A stretch of 44,849 nucleotides of DNA from NCBI GenBank assembly GCA_029210645.1, contig JARGFT010000012.1:1-44849 (forward strand), given 5' to 3'. Made by a program: the position numbers and the translations under genes. Origin of the DNA: Anaerosomatales bacterium. GTDB lineage: Bacteria; Actinomycetota; Coriobacteriia; Anaerosomatales; SLCP01. The first letter of the stretch is position 1. Each line of letters opens with the position of its first letter. Below the pieces are notes generated by a model, which saw nothing but the letters and a program-made list of their open reading frames with translations, did no database searches and was not told where the DNA came from. This document shows, piece by piece, positions 31,649 to 39,656 of the stretch.

Positions 31649-32188
31649 CTACTCGCACCCTGCGTAGGCGGACGCGACACCGTCGAATTCGATGTGGTCT
31701 GCCTCGACGTCGCGAATCGCCGCGAATACCTCGCGCAGCCGCTCGTTCGTGGCACGCTCGGCGAACATCGCATACAGCGACGAGGCGCGCTTCTCGCGCT
31801 TTAGGGACTCGGCGATATTCGCACACCAGTCGTCGGCGACTTCCATCGGGACCGAGAGGTCGTCAGGCTCGTCCACGCCGGCGAGCTTGCAGAACAGCTC
31901 GCAGTGCTCGGCCTCGATCTTGGAGAGGCGCTTGTACGCCGAGGACAGGACGGGTTCGGCCTTGTGCTGGGCCATACCGAGGTAGAAGCGGGTGTTCGAC
32001 CGCTCCAGCTCGATCGCTGCTTCGAGGTCGGCCCGCTCGCTCCCGGTGATCTCGACGTCGTTGATGTCGGCAGGGTACTCCTGGGAGGGATTCAGGAACT
32101 CCCGGTGCGCACCGCAGAACGGGCAGTGGCTGGGGGTCTCTGAGCCGAGGTAGACCTCTCCGCAGATACGGCAGCGAACCATCTTCAT
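31649..32188 (-). CDS. Rubrerythrin-like ferritin-fold protein with N-terminal rubredoxin domain
   Basis: A 179-residue protein. The N-terminal rubredoxin-like metal site is C6, C9, C22, C25, and a ferritin-like four-helix domain follows (about residues 50-175) with 'AAIELERSNTRFY', 'KIEAEHCELF' and 'AIRDVEADHIEF' providing Glu/His di-iron ligands. The domain order is that of reverse rubrerythrin, the opposite of classical rubrerythrin. Such proteins reduce peroxide in anaerobes. GAGAGGAG precedes the ATG. It is the second gene of a two-gene minus-strand unit with the DJ-1-like gene, 77 bp away. Confidence 0.85.
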   Translation of the reverse strand: MKMVRCRICGEVYLGSETPSHCPFCGAHREFLNPSQEYPADINDVEITGSERADLEAAIELERSNTRFYLGMAQHKAEPVLSSAYKRLSKIEAEHCELFCKLAGVDEPDDLSVPMEVADDWCANIAESLKREKRASSLYAMFAERATNERLREVFAAIRDVEADHIEFDGVASAYAGCE

Positions 32189-32265
32189 AGCGCGTCTCCT
32201 CTCATCGATCGGGCGTGACGGACTCGTGCGGGCCCGCGGTGTTCTCTCATCGTCGGGCGGGCGCT

Positions 32266-32775
32266 TCAGATCCCGAGGGCGTCTGCTACCGCAACGCCGA
32301 AGTCGCGTGCAGCTTCCGGGCCATTGGCGGTTATGACGTGGCCCTCGGCGGTCACGGACGCCCCGGTCCAGATGGCGCCGTGCGCTTCAAGATCGTCCTT
32401 CTGGCTCTCAAAGGCCGTGGCGGGCCAGCCGCGCAAGAGTCCGGCGCGTGCGAGAATGGACGGGGCGATGCAGATGGCCCCCAGTACCCGCTTGGACTCG
32501 CGGGCCGCCCTCGCCAGCGCGTGGGCGTAGGGGTCATCGAAGAAGACCTTGGCTCCGGCACCGCCGACGAACACCACAGCGTCGTAGTCGAGTGCGTCGG
32601 ATTCAGAGACTGCGATGGTCGCCTGAGCCTCCATCCCGAGCTTCCCGGAGCACGTGCCGGCTCGCGTGCTGGCCGTCACCACCGTCGCACCCCGGCTCTC
32701 GAGCACCTCTTTGGGGTGGGTGTACTCCTCGTCCCGGAATGTCTCCGGCGCGATCACCATCAGGACGGACTTCAT
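32266..32775 (-). CDS. DJ-1/PfpI family protein
   Basis: A 169-residue class I glutamine amidotransferase-like protein. The nucleophile-elbow cysteine is C102 in 'LGAICIAPSILARAG', and the acidic partner lies in 'ETFRDEEY' near residue 16. The usual His after the Cys is replaced by Ile ('ICIAP'), as in several DJ-1/YajL/ThiJ-like proteins rather than PfpI proteases. A role in stress defence or carbonyl detoxification is possible but not shown. It lies upstream of the rubrerythrin-like gene on the same strand and diverges from the polyferredoxin gene. Confidence 0.85.
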   Translation of the reverse strand: MKSVLMVIAPETFRDEEYTHPKEVLESRGATVVTASTRAGTCSGKLGMEAQATIAVSESDALDYDAVVFVGGAGAKVFFDDPYAHALARAARESKRVLGAICIAPSILARAGLLRGWPATAFESQKDDLEAHGAIWTGASVTAEGHVITANGPEAARDFGVAVADALGI

Positions 32776-32809
32776 GCAAACTCCTCACTTCGGTCGGGCC
32801 TCGTGTGAG

Positions 32810-32815
32810 AATATA
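32810..32815 (-). promoter_or_regulatory. Candidate -10 box for the DJ-1/rubrerythrin unit
   Basis: Read on the minus strand, TATATT (32815-32810) lies 35 nt before the start codon of the DJ-1-like gene. A -35 could not be identified. It is one of the few AT-rich hexamers in the 123-bp divergent intergenic region. Confidence 0.35.
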
Positions 32816-32898
32816 CCCGCAGCCATCGCGATGCGGCCGGCATCCGGCGCGGGGCCCTTGAGCGACGAAACGTACCATGTCGAGTCGGAAGGACGTGC

Positions 32899-33906
32899 GT
32901 GGAGCCGGTACATCGCGTTGTGCGGATCGTGACCAGCCGCTGGTTCGTCAAGGGAACGTTCTTCGTCTACTTCGTGTGGGCGTGCGTGAGTCTGTGGCGT
33001 TTCGCGGAGTGGGCTCGCGGCAACGGCACGTACGTGTCCCGGCCCGAGACGGTCGCCGGAATCCTCCCGGTCGGACACTTCACGAGCTTCTTCGCCTGGC
33101 TCAAGGGGGGAGGGTGGGACCCCTACCTTCCCGCCGGACTGGTGATCATCATCGCGGCGATTCTCACGTCGCTGCTGTTCAAGCGGGGGTTCTGCGGGTG
33201 GATATGCCCTGTCGGGACGGTGTGGGAGGCTGCCGCCTCGCTCGGCAGACGCGTGATGGGGGGGCGCAACCTCGGGCCGTCCCGCTGGCTTGACATCGCG
33301 GGCCGTTCGCTGCGCTACCTCATCGCCGTGGCCGCCTTCGGCTTCATCGGCCTCGTCTCCGTGCAGGAGGCGGTCTGGTTCAGGGAGCTGCCCTACATGT
33401 GGGTCGCCGACATCAAGATCCTCGGAGGCTTCTTCACGCCGGTGTTCATGGCCGTCATCGCACTGGCTTTCGTGCTCTCCATGCTATTCGGACCGGTGTG
33501 GTGCCGCTGGCTCTGTCCGCTGGGCGGCCTGTACAGCGTGTTCGGGATCGCATCGGCGTGCACGGTCGTGAGGGACGAGCGCTCGTGCATCCGGTGCAGC
33601 CGGTGCACCGAGGTATGCCATGCCTTCGTCGACGTGGAACGTGCCCGTGATGTGCGCGCTGCAGAGTGCGACGGCTGCATGGACTGCGTCAAGGAGTGCC
33701 CGGTCGACGGGTGCCTCACCGCACGTGCCCTGCGAACGATCGTCATCCCTGCGTGGGCGTGGCCGCTGCTTGTTGTCGGTCTCTGGCTGGGCGTCTACGC
33801 CGTCGCGAAGGTCAGCGGGAACTGGGACACGAGCATCCCGGTCGAGGCGTTCGCGCAGATTATCCGCTCCGGTCTCCTCGAGCAGCAGACCCCCGGATTC
33901 TTCTAG
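32899..33906 (+). CDS. Membrane polyferredoxin (NapH/CcoG-like 4Fe-4S protein)
   Basis: A 335-residue membrane electron carrier with about five helices. Two CxxxCP motifs ('GFCGWICPVGT' and 'VWCRWLCPLGG') mark the NapH/NosR/RdhC-like family. Two ferredoxin-type 4Fe-4S motifs follow, 'CIRCSRCTEVCHA' and 'CDGCMDCVKECPVDGC', and a final transmembrane helix. Such proteins move electrons across or along the membrane. No nitrate, nitrous oxide, cytochrome oxidase or dehalogenase genes are adjacent, so its partner is unknown. GTG start with GGAAGG 7 nt upstream. Confidence 0.87.
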   Translation: MEPVHRVVRIVTSRWFVKGTFFVYFVWACVSLWRFAEWARGNGTYVSRPETVAGILPVGHFTSFFAWLKGGGWDPYLPAGLVIIIAAILTSLLFKRGFCGWICPVGTVWEAAASLGRRVMGGRNLGPSRWLDIAGRSLRYLIAVAAFGFIGLVSVQEAVWFRELPYMWVADIKILGGFFTPVFMAVIALAFVLSMLFGPVWCRWLCPLGGLYSVFGIASACTVVRDERSCIRCSRCTEVCHAFVDVERARDVRAAECDGCMDCVKECPVDGCLTARALRTIVIPAWAWPLLVVGLWLGVYAVAKVSGNWDTSIPVEAFAQIIRSGLLEQQTPGFF

Positions 33907-33935
33907 GAAATCCTTGCGGGAGGCGATCCGGTGGG

Positions 33936-33983
33936 AGTGCACGGTGGTGCACTGCGGTATAGTGTGTACAACTTTGTACACAC
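33936..33983 (+). promoter_or_regulatory. Promoter with two perfect palindromes (oxoamine synthase operator)
   Basis: The -10 box TATAGT is at 33958-33963. Upstream, AGTGCAC (33936-33942) and GTGCACT (33947-33953) form a 7-bp-arm palindrome in the -35/-10 spacer. Downstream, GTGTGTACAA (33962-33971) and TTGTACACAC (33974-33983) form a 10-bp-arm palindrome with a 2-nt centre, covering the end of the -10 and the transcription start. This layout is typical of repressor operators. The binding protein is not identifiable from the window. Confidence 0.7.
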
Positions 33984-34032
33984 GACCGCCGGCACGGTGC
34001 CGGGGGGCTTGCCTCCAGAGAGGGGAATCCTC

Positions 34033-35250
34033 ATGACTGACTCGGTCACCATGCTCCGTGACGGGATCACGGAGCGCGTTGACGCCTTTCTAGAGCGCCG
34101 CACCGCTCTCAAGGACGCGGACCGCTACTTCTACCTGCAGCCCACGGTCGGACGCACCAACCACCGGGTCACCATGGCCGACGGCCGCGAGATGGTTCAG
34201 CTCGCCTCCTACAGCTACCTGGGGCTCATCGGTCATCCCCGCATCGAGGCCGCAGCCAAGGATGCGATCGACACCTACGGCACCGGTGCCGGCGGTGTGA
34301 GGCTTCTGACCGGTACGACCGATCTGCACGAGCGCCTCGAAACCCGCATCGCCGAGTACTGCCATCGGGAGGACTCCTGCGTCTACTCGAGCGGCTACGT
34401 GACGAACGTGGCGATCATCACGGGCCTGATGGGACCGGGTGACCTCGTTCTCATGGACAAGCTCGATCACGCCTCGATCGTCGACGGCTGCCTCCTCTCG
34501 GGCGCCAAGTGGCGCACGTATCGCCATAACGACATGGATCACCTCGAGAAGATCCTTGCAAAGGAGGCCGGAAACCACGGGACGATCATGGTGGTGGCCG
34601 ACTCGGTCTTCTCCATGGACGGCGACGTGATGGACCTGCCCACGACCCGCGAACTCTGCGACCGCTACGGCGCGCGGCTCATGGTCGATGAGGCCCACTC
34701 GGTCGGCTCGCTCGGAGCCACGGGTCACGGCATCGAGGAGCACTTCGACATGGTCGGCTCCATCGATCTGAAGATGGGCACGCTCTCCAAGTCGATCCCG
34801 TCCGTCGGCGGCTACCTCGCCGCGTCGCACGAGATCGTGGACTTCCAGCGGCACATGTCCCGCCCGTTCATCTTCTCCGCAGCACTGCCTCCCGCACAGA
34901 CAGCCGCTGCGATCGCGGCGTTCGACGTCATCGACGACGAGCCCGAGCGGGTAGCCCGGCTCCACGAGGTGACGCGCCGCTACTCCCAGGGCCTCAAAGC
35001 CCAGGGCTGGGACACGATGGATTCGACGACGTGCGTGGTGCCGGTGCTGGTGGGCGACGAGGGCAAGACGATGGACCTCACGCGCATGCTCTTCGACCGA
35101 GGCATCTTCGTGTGCCCGATCGTGCATCCGGCCGTACCCAAGGGCATGGACCGACTGCGCACCTGCCTGATGGCCACGCACACCGACGAGGACATCGACC
35201 AGGCTCTCTCGGCGTTCGCAGAGGCCGGAGCCGCACTCGGCCTGATCTAG
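34033..35250 (+). CDS. PLP-dependent alpha-oxoamine synthase family acyltransferase
   Basis: A 405-residue fold-type I PLP enzyme of the KBL/BioF/ALAS/SPT family, which condense an amino acid with an acyl thioester. 'YSYLGLIGHPRIEAAAKDAI' and 'YGTGAGGVRLLTGTTDLHERLE' bind substrate. 'VVADSVFSMDGDVMDL' and 'VDEAHSVGSLG' contact PLP, and K253 in 'GTLSKSIPSVGGYLA' is the Schiff-base lysine. The Ser-Lys-Ser context resembles serine palmitoyltransferases more than BioF or KBL (usually GK[AT]), but the substrate is not decided by this. ATG 34033 has AGAGGGG 7 nt upstream. It stands alone under an elaborate operator, with no biotin, haem or threonine-degradation genes nearby. Confidence 0.88.
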   Translation: MTDSVTMLRDGITERVDAFLERRTALKDADRYFYLQPTVGRTNHRVTMADGREMVQLASYSYLGLIGHPRIEAAAKDAIDTYGTGAGGVRLLTGTTDLHERLETRIAEYCHREDSCVYSSGYVTNVAIITGLMGPGDLVLMDKLDHASIVDGCLLSGAKWRTYRHNDMDHLEKILAKEAGNHGTIMVVADSVFSMDGDVMDLPTTRELCDRYGARLMVDEAHSVGSLGATGHGIEEHFDMVGSIDLKMGTLSKSIPSVGGYLAASHEIVDFQRHMSRPFIFSAALPPAQTAAAIAAFDVIDDEPERVARLHEVTRRYSQGLKAQGWDTMDSTTCVVPVLVGDEGKTMDLTRMLFDRGIFVCPIVHPAVPKGMDRLRTCLMATHTDEDIDQALSAFAEAGAALGLI

Positions 35251-35268
35251 CGGGTGGCGCGACCCGTT

Positions 35269-35300
35269 CTGCCATGTGGGCTAGAATCCGCACATGGCAG
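35269..35300 (+). promoter_or_regulatory. Promoter with 10-bp dyad flanking its -10 box
   Basis: TAGAAT (35282-35287) is a -10-like box. It is centred between CTGCCATGTG (35269-35278) and CACATGGCAG (35291-35300), a perfect 10-bp inverted repeat with a 12-nt spacer. The half-site centres are 22 bp apart, about two helical turns, as for a dimeric regulator. The predicted transcription start coincides with the ATG at 35294. No good -35 is seen. Confidence 0.6.
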
Positions 35301-35335
35301 GGAAGGGGAGCGTGATGCTCGAGGTCGGTCGGTGA
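35294..35335 (+). CDS. Possible 13-codon leader peptide upstream of the HD-GYP pair
   Basis: ATG 35294 opens a 13-codon frame encoding MAGKGSVMLEVGR, ending at TGA 35333-35335. The TGA overlaps the GTG start of the large gene (GTGA at 35332). The ATG lies 7 nt after the -10 box, so it would be translated from a leaderless RNA. A GGAAGGGGAG sequence inside it could also drive ATG 35315. Translational coupling to the downstream gene is the likely role. It is too short to prove from sequence alone. Confidence 0.35.
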   Translation: MAGKGSVMLEVGR

Positions 35336-37530
35336 AGGTGGAGCGCGGGCCCGGCGACGCGAAGGGCCGGCCGGGGTTCCGTGTGCCCGATCCTTTCCTG
35401 TGGTTTGGGCTTCCAGCCCTCGCGGTGACGTTCGTTGTCCTGCGCGACCCCGGTCCTTCGAGCCCGGTCGCGTTCGCCGCGAGTCAGGTCGTCTTCTTGC
35501 TCGCGGCCTGGCTGAGTGTGGCCGGTTCGGTGATGGCGCTTCGCACTGCCGAGGGCACCGTCGAACGCCGGCCGTGGGCCACCTTCGCTTTCGCGTGTGT
35601 CGCGATCGCTGCGGGCGAGACCTACTTCAGCGGTTATCAGGTGTTCATCGACCCCCTCGGCCCCGCAGCCATTTCTCCTTCGGACGTGCTCTACGGGATG
35701 GGCGCGCTCGCGCTTTCACTCGGTCTCCTGTTCGTCTCGAGTCTGTCGCGCATGCCGCGTGTGGTGGTCGCGCGTCGGGCGGCCGACGCGCTCGGGCTTG
35801 TCGCGGTGGCGCTCGCTGCTGCGTACGCAGCGATGCGCATCATCGTCGACCGTCCGGTCGGGCCGCTTCTCGACGAGCTCGCCGAAGTCGCCTACGTCGT
35901 TATCGGGCTCGTGATACTTGCCACCGTCGTATTCGGGCTTGTCGGCGTGCGCGGTCGCCGCCCTGACACGTGGGAGATCGTGATCGGAGCCGCACTTACC
36001 CTCTTCGGCTTGAGCGTGATGCTGGTGCCGATAGGCGGCCACTTCCCGGCGTTTGCGAGTGCGCCCTGGGGGAGGGTCGCCCTACCGATCTCGTTCATGT
36101 GCAGCTACTACCTCGTCTTCGTCGCAGGCGTGTATCGCTCGCGCGGACCAGGTGTGTCGGCGGCAGCGCGTGCATTCGTAGCCGAGGAGGTGCTGGCGGG
36201 CCTGCGATGGAGGGACGTCGTGATCTCGACGGTACTCCTCGTGGCGATTCCCGCGCTCGGGATCACGGCGTTTCGCGCGCGCGTGGACGCTCAGCATGCC
36301 ACAGTGAACTTCATCGCGATGGCGCTGGTAGGATCCGCGATGGTAGCTCACACCGCCCTGGACGCCGTGTACACAGGACGCCTGCGCAGGCGGGCAGGCA
36401 CCGATCCCCTTACGGGGCTGCTCGATGCGCGGGCGGTCCAGCGACGTCTTTCCGGGGCGGTGACCGATTTCGAGCGGTACGGCGACCCGGTGTCTGTCAT
36501 CGTGGTGGACCTCAACGACTTCGCACGTGTCAACACGCTCTACGACCGCGACGAGGGCGATCGTCTGATGAGAGAAGTAGCCCGGGTACTCGAGGCCGAC
36601 CCTCGTCCCCGTACGACCCCCGGCCGGCTTGGCAGCGACGAGTTCGTGGTGGTTCTCGAGGGGGCCGACCGTGCGGAGGCACTGCTCGCCGCGGACCGCA
36701 TGCGCGCTGAAGTGCACGGGATACTGACCACCGCAGGGCTGCCTCTGACTGCGTCCTGGGGTGTGGCGACCTGCCCGCAGGACGCCACGAGCCCTCGCAG
36801 TCTCATCATTAAGGCCTACTCGGCTCAGCACTGGGCCAAGACCCGCGGACACAACCTGCTCGCCTCCTACGATCCCGCCCGCATGCGAACCCTCGACCAG
36901 GTCGCTCGTATGGATGCTGCCGAGGAACAGGCTGACCTCGCGATGCTGCTCTCGATCGTCATGGCATCCGAGTCGCGCCACGAGACTACGCGCTTCCACT
37001 CCCGCAACGTAGCTGCACTCTCGGTATTGGTGGCAGAGCTCCTCGGCTTGGCTGCTGAAGAGGTCCGCGATGCCGAGCTCGCAGGACTTCTGCACGACAT
37101 AGGGAAGATCGGAGTCAGCGACGAGGTCCTTATGAAGGCGGAATCCCTGTCGCGTGCCGAGGATGCTCACTTCCGCGAGCACGTGGTGACCGGCGAGCGG
37201 CTCGTGGCCGCTACAGTCCTGAGCCGCGTCGCCCCCGCGATCAGGGCGCACCACGAACGGTGGGACGGGACGGGATATCCCGACCGCCTGGCCGGAGATG
37301 CGATTCCGCGTCTCGCGCGCATCATCGCCGTCTGTGATGCGTTCGAGGGACTGCTGTCGGGCAGGCCGGGGCGTCGGCCGCTCTCGCTCGATGCGACCCT
37401 TCAGGAGCTGGATCAGAGCATGGGCGTTGGACACGACCCCGAGGTGGTCGAAGTGCTCATCTCGGTCGCCGAGAGCCTTCCGGGGATGCGCCGGGAAGAC
37501 GAGGGGCGTGGTGCGCTATGGACAGGGTGA
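35332..37530 (+). CDS. Membrane GGDEF/HD-GYP signalling protein 1
   Basis: A 732-residue protein with about eight N-terminal membrane helices (to about residue 345), a GGDEF domain and an HD-GYP phosphodiesterase domain. The GGDEF signature is altered to GSDEF (434-438). The HD-GYP domain has HDIGK at 588-592, HH at 640-641 and 'ERWDGTGYPDRL', and retains the later metal-ligand aspartate in 'IIAVCDAFEG', so it is probably an active cyclic dinucleotide hydrolase. GTG 35332 is preferred (GAGG 7 nt upstream and overlap with the leader ORF); an upstream GTG at 35254 is possible. The 3' end overlaps its paralogue by 13 bp. Confidence 0.88.
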   Translation: MKVERGPGDAKGRPGFRVPDPFLWFGLPALAVTFVVLRDPGPSSPVAFAASQVVFLLAAWLSVAGSVMALRTAEGTVERRPWATFAFACVAIAAGETYFSGYQVFIDPLGPAAISPSDVLYGMGALALSLGLLFVSSLSRMPRVVVARRAADALGLVAVALAAAYAAMRIIVDRPVGPLLDELAEVAYVVIGLVILATVVFGLVGVRGRRPDTWEIVIGAALTLFGLSVMLVPIGGHFPAFASAPWGRVALPISFMCSYYLVFVAGVYRSRGPGVSAAARAFVAEEVLAGLRWRDVVISTVLLVAIPALGITAFRARVDAQHATVNFIAMALVGSAMVAHTALDAVYTGRLRRRAGTDPLTGLLDARAVQRRLSGAVTDFERYGDPVSVIVVDLNDFARVNTLYDRDEGDRLMREVARVLEADPRPRTTPGRLGSDEFVVVLEGADRAEALLAADRMRAEVHGILTTAGLPLTASWGVATCPQDATSPRSLIIKAYSAQHWAKTRGHNLLASYDPARMRTLDQVARMDAAEEQADLAMLLSIVMASESRHETTRFHSRNVAALSVLVAELLGLAAEEVRDAELAGLLHDIGKIGVSDEVLMKAESLSRAEDAHFREHVVTGERLVAATVLSRVAPAIRAHHERWDGTGYPDRLAGDAIPRLARIIAVCDAFEGLLSGRPGRRPLSLDATLQELDQSMGVGHDPEVVEVLISVAESLPGMRREDEGRGALWTG

Positions 37531-39656
37531 ACCGCGTCGCATTGACCCGGTTTCTTGCCTGGGCCGGGCTCGCTGCACTCGTACTGGCTCGCGTCGCAGT
37601 TGAGGGCCCACATCTGCCCGGAGACGCCGGCGCCATCGCGGCGTGGGGGATCTCACTGCTGCCGATGCCGATGGCAGCGGCAGCGTCGTTCCTCGCGTAC
37701 CGTCGTGCCGAGAGCGACGAGCGGCGGTTCTGGCTCCCGCTGACCCTCGCCGTCTCGATCCTCCTCCTCAGCGAGACGTACTGGGCGTACTTCGTACTCT
37801 TCGTCGATCCGCTCGGGCCCCGGCTTCCTCATCCCTTCGAGCTGTTGCAGGCCACGGCTGCGGTGGCGTTCCTGGCCATACTCGTGTCGCTCACGCGGTT
37901 CGGCACGGAGCCATGGCCGGTGCGCATACGCTTCTACGCGGATGTCGTGCTCTCGATGGTGGTCGGGTTCGTGGCCGTCTACCGGTGGGTGGTCGGCCCG
38001 CTGTTCGAAGGGATCCCGCGGTACTCGACGGGCCTGGTCCTCGTCGGCTCGGTGTACCCCGTTCTCGGTGCCGCACTACTCATCGGCACGTTCGGCGTGT
38101 TGGTGGGCCTGAAGGTCGATCGCTGGCGGTCCTGGGAGCGAGCCGTTGCCGCGTCGGTGACCGTCTACACGCTTGGGGTCCTCTACTGGCCCTGGTGGTA
38201 CTCGGGTTTCCAACGCTCAGGAGCGAGCGGCGCGAACACACTCATCGTCGACGCGGTGTTCACCGGAGGCTTCTATCTCCTGTTCGTCGCTGCCCTCTAC
38301 CGTCTCACCGAATACGATGTGCGACCAGTTTCGCGAGGGGTTCCTGCTCCGGTCGGCCGGTGGCCATGGCTTAGCCCGCTCTACCTCAGCGGCATGGTGC
38401 TCTCGGTTCCGCTCATCGCGTGGGCGGGCGCCACAGCCGAGGACAGCGCTGATGCAGCGGTCTACCTGTGGGCGGTGGTAGCGCTCGTGTCGCTTCTGGG
38501 CGTGCGCAGCTGGCTTTCAACGGTTGAAGGGACGTATCTGTTTACCGCATCGGTCACCGACCCGGTTTCGGGGCTCGCGAACCGGCGCGCGTTCGATGCG
38601 GTGCTTCCCGCGGCGGTTTCCGCCTACGACAACCAACCCGTCTCGGCGGTGGCGTTCGACATCGACCGCTTCGCAATCCTGAACGAGATCGCCGGACATG
38701 CCGAGGGTGATCGTGTGCTCCGTGAAGTGGCCGGAATCGTGCAGGAGGTCCTGGATGCCCGCGGCAAGGTGTTCCGCCTCGGCGGGGACGATCTCGTCGC
38801 GCTGCTGCCCGGCGTGGACGCAGCGGCCGCCGCAGATCTGGCCGCCGAGTGCGGTCGGCGTGTCGAGCGACACGTGCGCTCCAGCGGGATGACGGTCTCG
38901 CTCTCGGCGGGTGTGGCCTCGGCACCCCGGCATGCGCGGGAAGGCGAGGACCTCGTGCGAAAGGCGATGTCGGCGCAGGAGTGGGCCCGGTCCGCGGGTG
39001 GGGCGCGCACCAGGGTCTTCGATGAAGCCGAGGGGCACGTCCTCGACCCGGCAGAACGCCTCGAACGCATCAGACGGGGCGATCACCTCTCCACGGTACG
39101 CGCGATCGCGTCTACCGTTGATGCGAGAGACCCTCACGCCCCTGATCACTCGCGCATCGTCGCACGCGCGGCCGTCATGCTCGCCCGTGAGATCGGACTG
39201 TCCGACGAGCGCGTCGCTCTGATCGAGACTGCGGCGCTTCTGCACGACATCGGCAAGCTCGCCGTCGACGACCGCTTGCTCGCGACGGCACACGCTCTGA
39301 CTCAGGCCGAGCGAGAGCAGGTAGAGGAGCACGCGGTCTACTCCGAGCAAGTCCTGCGCTCCAGCGGTGTCGACGAGATACTGCCGTGGGTGCGCCACCA
39401 CCACGAGCGGTGGGACGGCGCCGGCTACCCGGACGGTCTGGTCGCCGGGCAGATCCCGCTCGAAGCTCGCATCGTCGCCATCGCAAACGCCTACGAGTTC
39501 ATGACCTCGGGCAGACCCTATCAGCCGGCCCTCGGACACCACGCCGCACTGCGCCACATCGAGCTGGAGGGCGGGGCGCATTTCGACCCGACGCTTGCAG
39601 CCGTCTTCGTCCGCATCATGTGGAACTCGACTCCGCTCCACACCGCAGCGCCCTGA
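37518..39656 (+). CDS. Membrane GGDEF/HD-GYP signalling protein 2 (degenerate)
   Basis: A 712-residue paralogue of the preceding protein with the same layout: about eight membrane helices, GGDEF and HD-GYP. The GGDEF signature is GGDDL (422-426), so cyclase activity is doubtful. HDIGK is at 576-580 and 'HHHERWDGAGYPDG' begins at 627. The aspartate usually found in the 'A-V-A-D-A-Y' metal-ligand motif is N657 ('IVAIANAYEFM'), which may weaken di-metal binding. ATG 37518 overlaps the first gene by 13 bp; GTG 37527 (GTGA overlap) is an alternative. The pair is certainly co-translated and may form a heteromer. Confidence 0.88.
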   Translation: MDRVNRVALTRFLAWAGLAALVLARVAVEGPHLPGDAGAIAAWGISLLPMPMAAAASFLAYRRAESDERRFWLPLTLAVSILLLSETYWAYFVLFVDPLGPRLPHPFELLQATAAVAFLAILVSLTRFGTEPWPVRIRFYADVVLSMVVGFVAVYRWVVGPLFEGIPRYSTGLVLVGSVYPVLGAALLIGTFGVLVGLKVDRWRSWERAVAASVTVYTLGVLYWPWWYSGFQRSGASGANTLIVDAVFTGGFYLLFVAALYRLTEYDVRPVSRGVPAPVGRWPWLSPLYLSGMVLSVPLIAWAGATAEDSADAAVYLWAVVALVSLLGVRSWLSTVEGTYLFTASVTDPVSGLANRRAFDAVLPAAVSAYDNQPVSAVAFDIDRFAILNEIAGHAEGDRVLREVAGIVQEVLDARGKVFRLGGDDLVALLPGVDAAAAADLAAECGRRVERHVRSSGMTVSLSAGVASAPRHAREGEDLVRKAMSAQEWARSAGGARTRVFDEAEGHVLDPAERLERIRRGDHLSTVRAIASTVDARDPHAPDHSRIVARAAVMLAREIGLSDERVALIETAALLHDIGKLAVDDRLLATAHALTQAEREQVEEHAVYSEQVLRSSGVDEILPWVRHHHERWDGAGYPDGLVAGQIPLEARIVAIANAYEFMTSGRPYQPALGHHAALRHIELEGGAHFDPTLAAVFVRIMWNSTPLHTAAP

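Follow-up and report, generated by a model that had tools for sequence, protein, structure and literature searches.

A conserved bipartite operator at an alpha-oxoamine synthase promoter of Coriobacteriia and its probable self-regulated helix-turn-helix repressor

The promoter of an alpha-oxoamine synthase gene in an Anaerosomatales bacterium carries a palindrome which, judging from its preservation among relatives, is a real and deeply conserved DNA switch. This palindrome exemplifies a conserved operator of two parts, TGTRYACA-N4-TGTRYACA, and there is good reason to hold that it serves a local, autoregulated repressor: a helix-turn-helix protein of ~205 aa, here called TF, which is encoded elsewhere in the genome. 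The regulator that binds the operator is very probably a previously undescribed one. No published description of TF, its operator or its regulon was found in the literature covered (mostly without subscription journals), and all three appear to be new; systems of this kind, with a local self-regulated helix-turn-helix repressor, are familiar.

The window (i.e., the whole stretch of 44,849 nucleotides that was analysed) holds the synthase gene on the forward strand at 34033-35250, with its ATG at 34033 and a product of 405 aa; this gene is the presumed target of the operator. Ahead of it lie (i) a likely ribosome-binding site, GAGAGGGG, read from the sequence at 34018-34025 (+ strand); (ii) a -10-like element, TATAGT, at 33958-33963 (+ strand), with a TATNNT-like element at or beside the same place in most orthologues; (iii) a large perfect dyad, GTGTGTACAA-CT-TTGTACACAC, with 10-bp arms and a 2-nt centre, at 33962-33983; and (iv) a small dyad, AGTGCAC-GGTG-GTGCACT, with 7-bp arms, at 33936-33953. 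Neither dyad has a strand, and both are exactly as an earlier note on this DNA had described them. Within the large dyad are the two octamers of the operator, likewise without strand and both of the form TGTRYACA: TGTGTACA at 33963-33970 and, 12 bp from it, TGTACACA at 33975-33982. The operator in the window begins at the last base of TATAGT. The 5' leader of the synthase gene also includes a short GC-rich hairpin, CCGGCAC-G-GTGCCGG (33989-34003), found in the closest relative (L003) and not in another relative (L004).

The conservation of the operator was computed from 38 distinct synthase promoters of Coriobacteriia, all of which contain it (34 exactly, four with one mismatch). Ten of the 12 fully specified positions are invariant and the remaining two are kept in 37 of the 38 promoters; the TGT..ACA frame of the first octamer is present in all of them, the second octamer is near-invariant, and the flanks are near random save the -10. 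The earlier note's proposal of a regulatory role for the large dyad is thus well borne out. The order yielded 30 orthologue promoters, each with a related site, and in a second collection the Coriobacteriia orthologues, including those of termite-gut type lineages (66-70% protein identity), also carry it; one truncated locus (L106) has no upstream DNA. At the Chloroflexi synthase homologues (about 50-55% identity) the operator is absent. At the middle dinucleotide the octamers have GT, AC, GC or AT, variously combined; perfect overall symmetry, as seen in the window, is therefore not required. From this comparison, the feature retained is a pair of symmetric TGT-RY-ACA units 12 bp apart, and not the GTGTGTACAA arm: the outer G/C is variable, as is most of the centre. 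In all 38 promoters the site lies at or just past the -10, mostly starting from its last base.

It had also been suggested that a search for further copies of the dyad would reveal the regulon and a self-regulated repressor, and the search did lead to a regulon and to an apparently self-regulated regulator. In the own genome no further copy of the 22-mer dyad was found at up to three mismatches, and a relaxed pattern yielded a second good site, with one mismatch, at C1:66534-66553, upstream of the TF gene (contig C1 of genome G000, about 66591-67211). An exact search of 61 relatives returned matches at the synthase and TF promoters and one other site (G046:C77); the reversed pattern, used as control, gave 0 matches in the same 61 relatives. 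With one mismatch allowed, just three further sites appeared in 41 genomes. The extra sites (G000:C16, G006:C2, G027:C107, G046:C77 and G247:C50) are all singletons, that of G006 lying in the rpsL region and that of G027 between yrdC-like and rpiB-like genes. Across the scanned relatives no gene other than those of the synthase and TF, the two computed targets, carries the operator recurrently, and further regulon members were in consequence rejected. The exact motif occurs in 40 genomes, of which 39 hold TF, the synthase or both. Co-occurrence of the two genes within the class was computed as well: both are present in 41 genomes, the synthase only in three, TF only in one and neither in 203, so that 41 of the 45 genomes holding either have the two together (Fisher p = 4e-42, a value that overstates the case because related genomes are not independent).

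The linkage of operator and TF was followed from the order to the phylum. Of the 30 TF genes in the order, 21 are preceded by the site at a distance of at most 70 bp, as a rule behind a TATACT-like -10, and the operator at TF promoters begins a few bases past the -10. The other nine have no site in front, and most of these directly follow coaX, the type III pantothenate kinase gene; in the f20 genomes there is no operator in front of TF, and in family f17 it precedes a coaX-TF-DH operon (DH being a protein of ~305 aa whose gene lies directly downstream of TF, usually overlapping it). In a sample of the phylum, TF homologues were found in 31 genomes from other Actinomycetota classes. All 18 TF loci examined there carry the operator upstream of TF with 0-1 mismatch, and all of them include DH. 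The 162 kb concerned contain 19 such sites, every one of which belongs to these operators; of 5400 shuffled upstream regions, 0 had the operator. By contrast with TF, 27 of these 31 genomes have no synthase homologue, and at the four distant synthase homologues of TF-bearing genomes the operator is absent. Since the operator accompanies TF where the synthase is usually missing, the operator follows TF; the older circuit is therefore probably that of TF and DH with their own operator, and the synthase would be a target added in Coriobacteriia. The recurrent placement of the site before TF's own gene, both in the order and in the other classes, points to autoregulation. Two TF promoters of other classes have more elaborate arrangements: three octamers in a row at 12-bp pitch, one of them degenerate (L237:4702-4733), and two full operators 43 bp apart (L226:4809-4871).

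Regarded purely as palindromes, neither dyad is remarkable. When dyads with loops of 0-6 nt were counted, with dinucleotide-preserving shuffles of the window as control, 38 with arms of at least 7 bp were observed versus a shuffle mean of 34.7, and one with arms of at least 10 bp versus a mean of 0.75. Both dyads are hence no rarer than chance, and function must come from comparison, their significance lying in conservation. These counts would suit a reading of both dyads as functionless chance palindromes, which stands for the small one; for the large one it is refuted by near-invariance amid randomised flanks, and the empty reversed-pattern control also speaks against it, so that the reading as a whole has a negligible probability. 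The earlier note had instead taken two exact dyads at one promoter as a sign of two regulators, or of one regulator with two operators, and had held that absence upstream of orthologues would count against them. Both dyads do exist in the window, but only the large one survives the comparison with orthologues, which show the TGTRYACA operator only. One arm of the 7-bp dyad is mutated in L003, and the dyad is gone in L004 and the other relatives. Not even the genus conserves it, and dyads this large are to be expected by chance; it is judged a chance feature, and with its loss in relatives the evidence for two regulators or two operators disappears, leaving that arrangement very improbable. Nor is it established that the small dyad fills a -35/-10 spacer, as had been stated: no -35 hexamer is recognisable, and a sigma-70 scan of 33700-35500 returned 0 promoters.

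If the large dyad is a true operator, a different regulator might bind it, the TF gene being merely one of its targets. Three genomes with synthase and operator in which no TF was detected (G001, G034, G035) would agree with such a regulator, but they are incomplete (82-91% complete) and stand against an otherwise strong co-occurrence of TF and synthase; moreover, in the other classes the site stays before TF in 18 of 18 cases, mostly without a synthase, and recurrently before no other gene. A binder other than TF is, on these grounds, quite unlikely. It is also unlikely that TF activates from the operator or plays both roles depending on its ligand. A promoter with no recognisable -35 might need help, and two-role regulators are known, e.g., the C proteins of restriction-modification systems, which act as repressors or activators (PMC5282649). 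Nevertheless, in both promoter classes the site is at or just past the -10, where a bound protein normally hinders the polymerase, and many orthologues have TG one base ahead of TATNNT, i.e., an extended -10, which can replace a -35.

The preferred reading, that of TF as a local autorepressor, can be put as follows. TF would bind TGTRYACA-N4-TGTRYACA at the synthase promoter and at its own TF-DH operon; we infer this role of binder from the same site standing before synthase and TF genes across the class, and before TF across the phylum. Bound TF would block RNA polymerase or initial transcription, and it is the position of the site at or just after the -10, the classical one for a repressor, that leads us to propose repression rather than activation. 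A ligand would release TF, most plausibly an intermediate of the pathway of synthase and DH, perhaps a CoA-linked one, as the location of TF beside coaX may indicate. Regarding the oligomeric state, the internal symmetry of the octamers and their mixed centre dinucleotides suggest a pair of dimers, one per octamer, the alternative being one dimer over 20 bp. A broader and rather doubtful proposal is that TF represents a phylum-wide helix-turn-helix family with its own sensing region, whose ligand would be a CoA-linked metabolite and which would govern a pathway of two steps, those of synthase and DH, that yields a new lipid or metabolite derived from an aminoketone (in Coriobacteriia and Chloroflexi); on this view, Coriobacteriia recruited the synthase to a TF-DH circuit that is older.

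The N-terminal part of TF is a helix-turn-helix whose recognition helix (R-S/T-F/V-V/I-S) is nearly invariant; a second conserved region follows, for which no database match was found. Pfam HTH_31 was matched in five of 30 members and HTH_3 in four of 30, weakly (E up to 0.05), with best values of 1e-4 and 7e-4, respectively; the TF of the own genome matched neither. Against the PDB, the profile of TF matched a C protein and a designed helix-turn-helix protein, both weakly. Two related genomes have one in-frame TGA in the TF frame (G046:C52:2616-3176 and G018:C161:14375-14917), which might reflect decay or an assembly error. By these weak matches, TF may resemble in general type the XRE-type autorepressors (HTH_3/HTH_31; 434-type and C proteins), and it would share with them self-regulation and an operator over the -10/start region, both read from sequence in the case of TF. 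But while C proteins consist of a helix-turn-helix only, TF has in addition a long conserved second region; and C boxes have an AGTC core (PMC5282649), unlike the TGTRYACA-N4-TGTRYACA operator of TF. Furthermore, TF is linked to metabolic genes (coaX, DH) and not to restriction-modification or phage genes. TF as a restriction-modification C protein was discarded given its other operator, its length of ~205 aa and its neighbours.

The synthase belongs to the PLP-dependent alpha-oxoamine synthases and has the lysine expected of them (K253). It shares the enzyme group and the PLP lysine with serine palmitoyltransferase, KBL and BioF, but falls below every NCBIfam equivalog cut-off for them (BioF, 395.5 bits versus 426.45; serine palmitoyltransferase, 391.6 bits versus 640), and its homologue is paired with DH in Caldilineaceae. 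Among solved structures, bacterial serine palmitoyltransferases come nearest (E 1.6e-84), with KBL/BioF-type enzymes close behind. No bioB over cut-off was found in the own genome and only one among the 61 relatives, which argues against a biotin enzyme; together with the score below cut-off, this led to the rejection of a BioF identity. In the sole relative with bioB, that gene adjoins a 38%-identical synthase paralogue, presumably the real bioF (G012:C154:3787-5881). The biotin regulators BirA, BioR and BioQ resemble the present case in having a site at the promoter of a bioF-related gene, but the synthase here is not a biotin enzyme; the TGTRYACA operator is also not known to resemble the BirA site. 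In the paper on Anaerosomatales, sphingolipid, biotin and serine palmitoyltransferase are not mentioned. Upstream of the synthase, here (31649-33906) and in the distant genome G044 (L159:3476-5202), there are genes for a rubrerythrin-like protein and a NapH-like iron-sulfur membrane protein, so that this neighbourhood is conserved.

DH had no Pfam or NCBIfam match and no significant PDB match. Quinate 5-dehydrogenase, a database name for DH, is not supported as an identity, as there was no match to a curated family model or a solved structure; the AlphaFold model of the Caldilineaceae DH homologues (mean pLDDT 52) is too poor to use. The gene that immediately follows the synthase homologue in 17 Caldilineaceae-type Chloroflexi encodes a DH homologue (41-45% identity), and this adjacency is independent evidence that both enzymes work together. 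Throughout the phylum, coaX is found near TF. Enzymes of the alpha-oxoamine synthase class use acyl-CoA, and both facts hint at a CoA-linked signal being sensed by TF.

These results provide a probable regulator with its operator and regulon for Coriobacteriia and other deep lineages of Actinomycetota, mostly known from metagenomes, for which none was found described, and they join three genes lacking an assigned role (those of TF, DH and the synthase) into a single unit open to testing. Being nearly unique per genome, the operator lends itself directly to binding assays and the search for an effector. The synthase, a target in Coriobacteriia alone, seems to provide a clear example of gene gain by a regulon.

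Downstream of the synthase, a GGDEF-HD protein gene (35254-37530) is adjacent to a gene whose product is similarly organised and looks alike in sequence (37518-39656), the two being probably a tandem duplication. Before the GGDEF-HD gene, a dyad with 10-bp arms, CTGCCATGTG-N12-CACATGGCAG (35269-35300), surrounds a TAGAAT -10-like element; retained only in part in L003 and L004, and missing from relatives beyond these, this dyad is probably due to chance.
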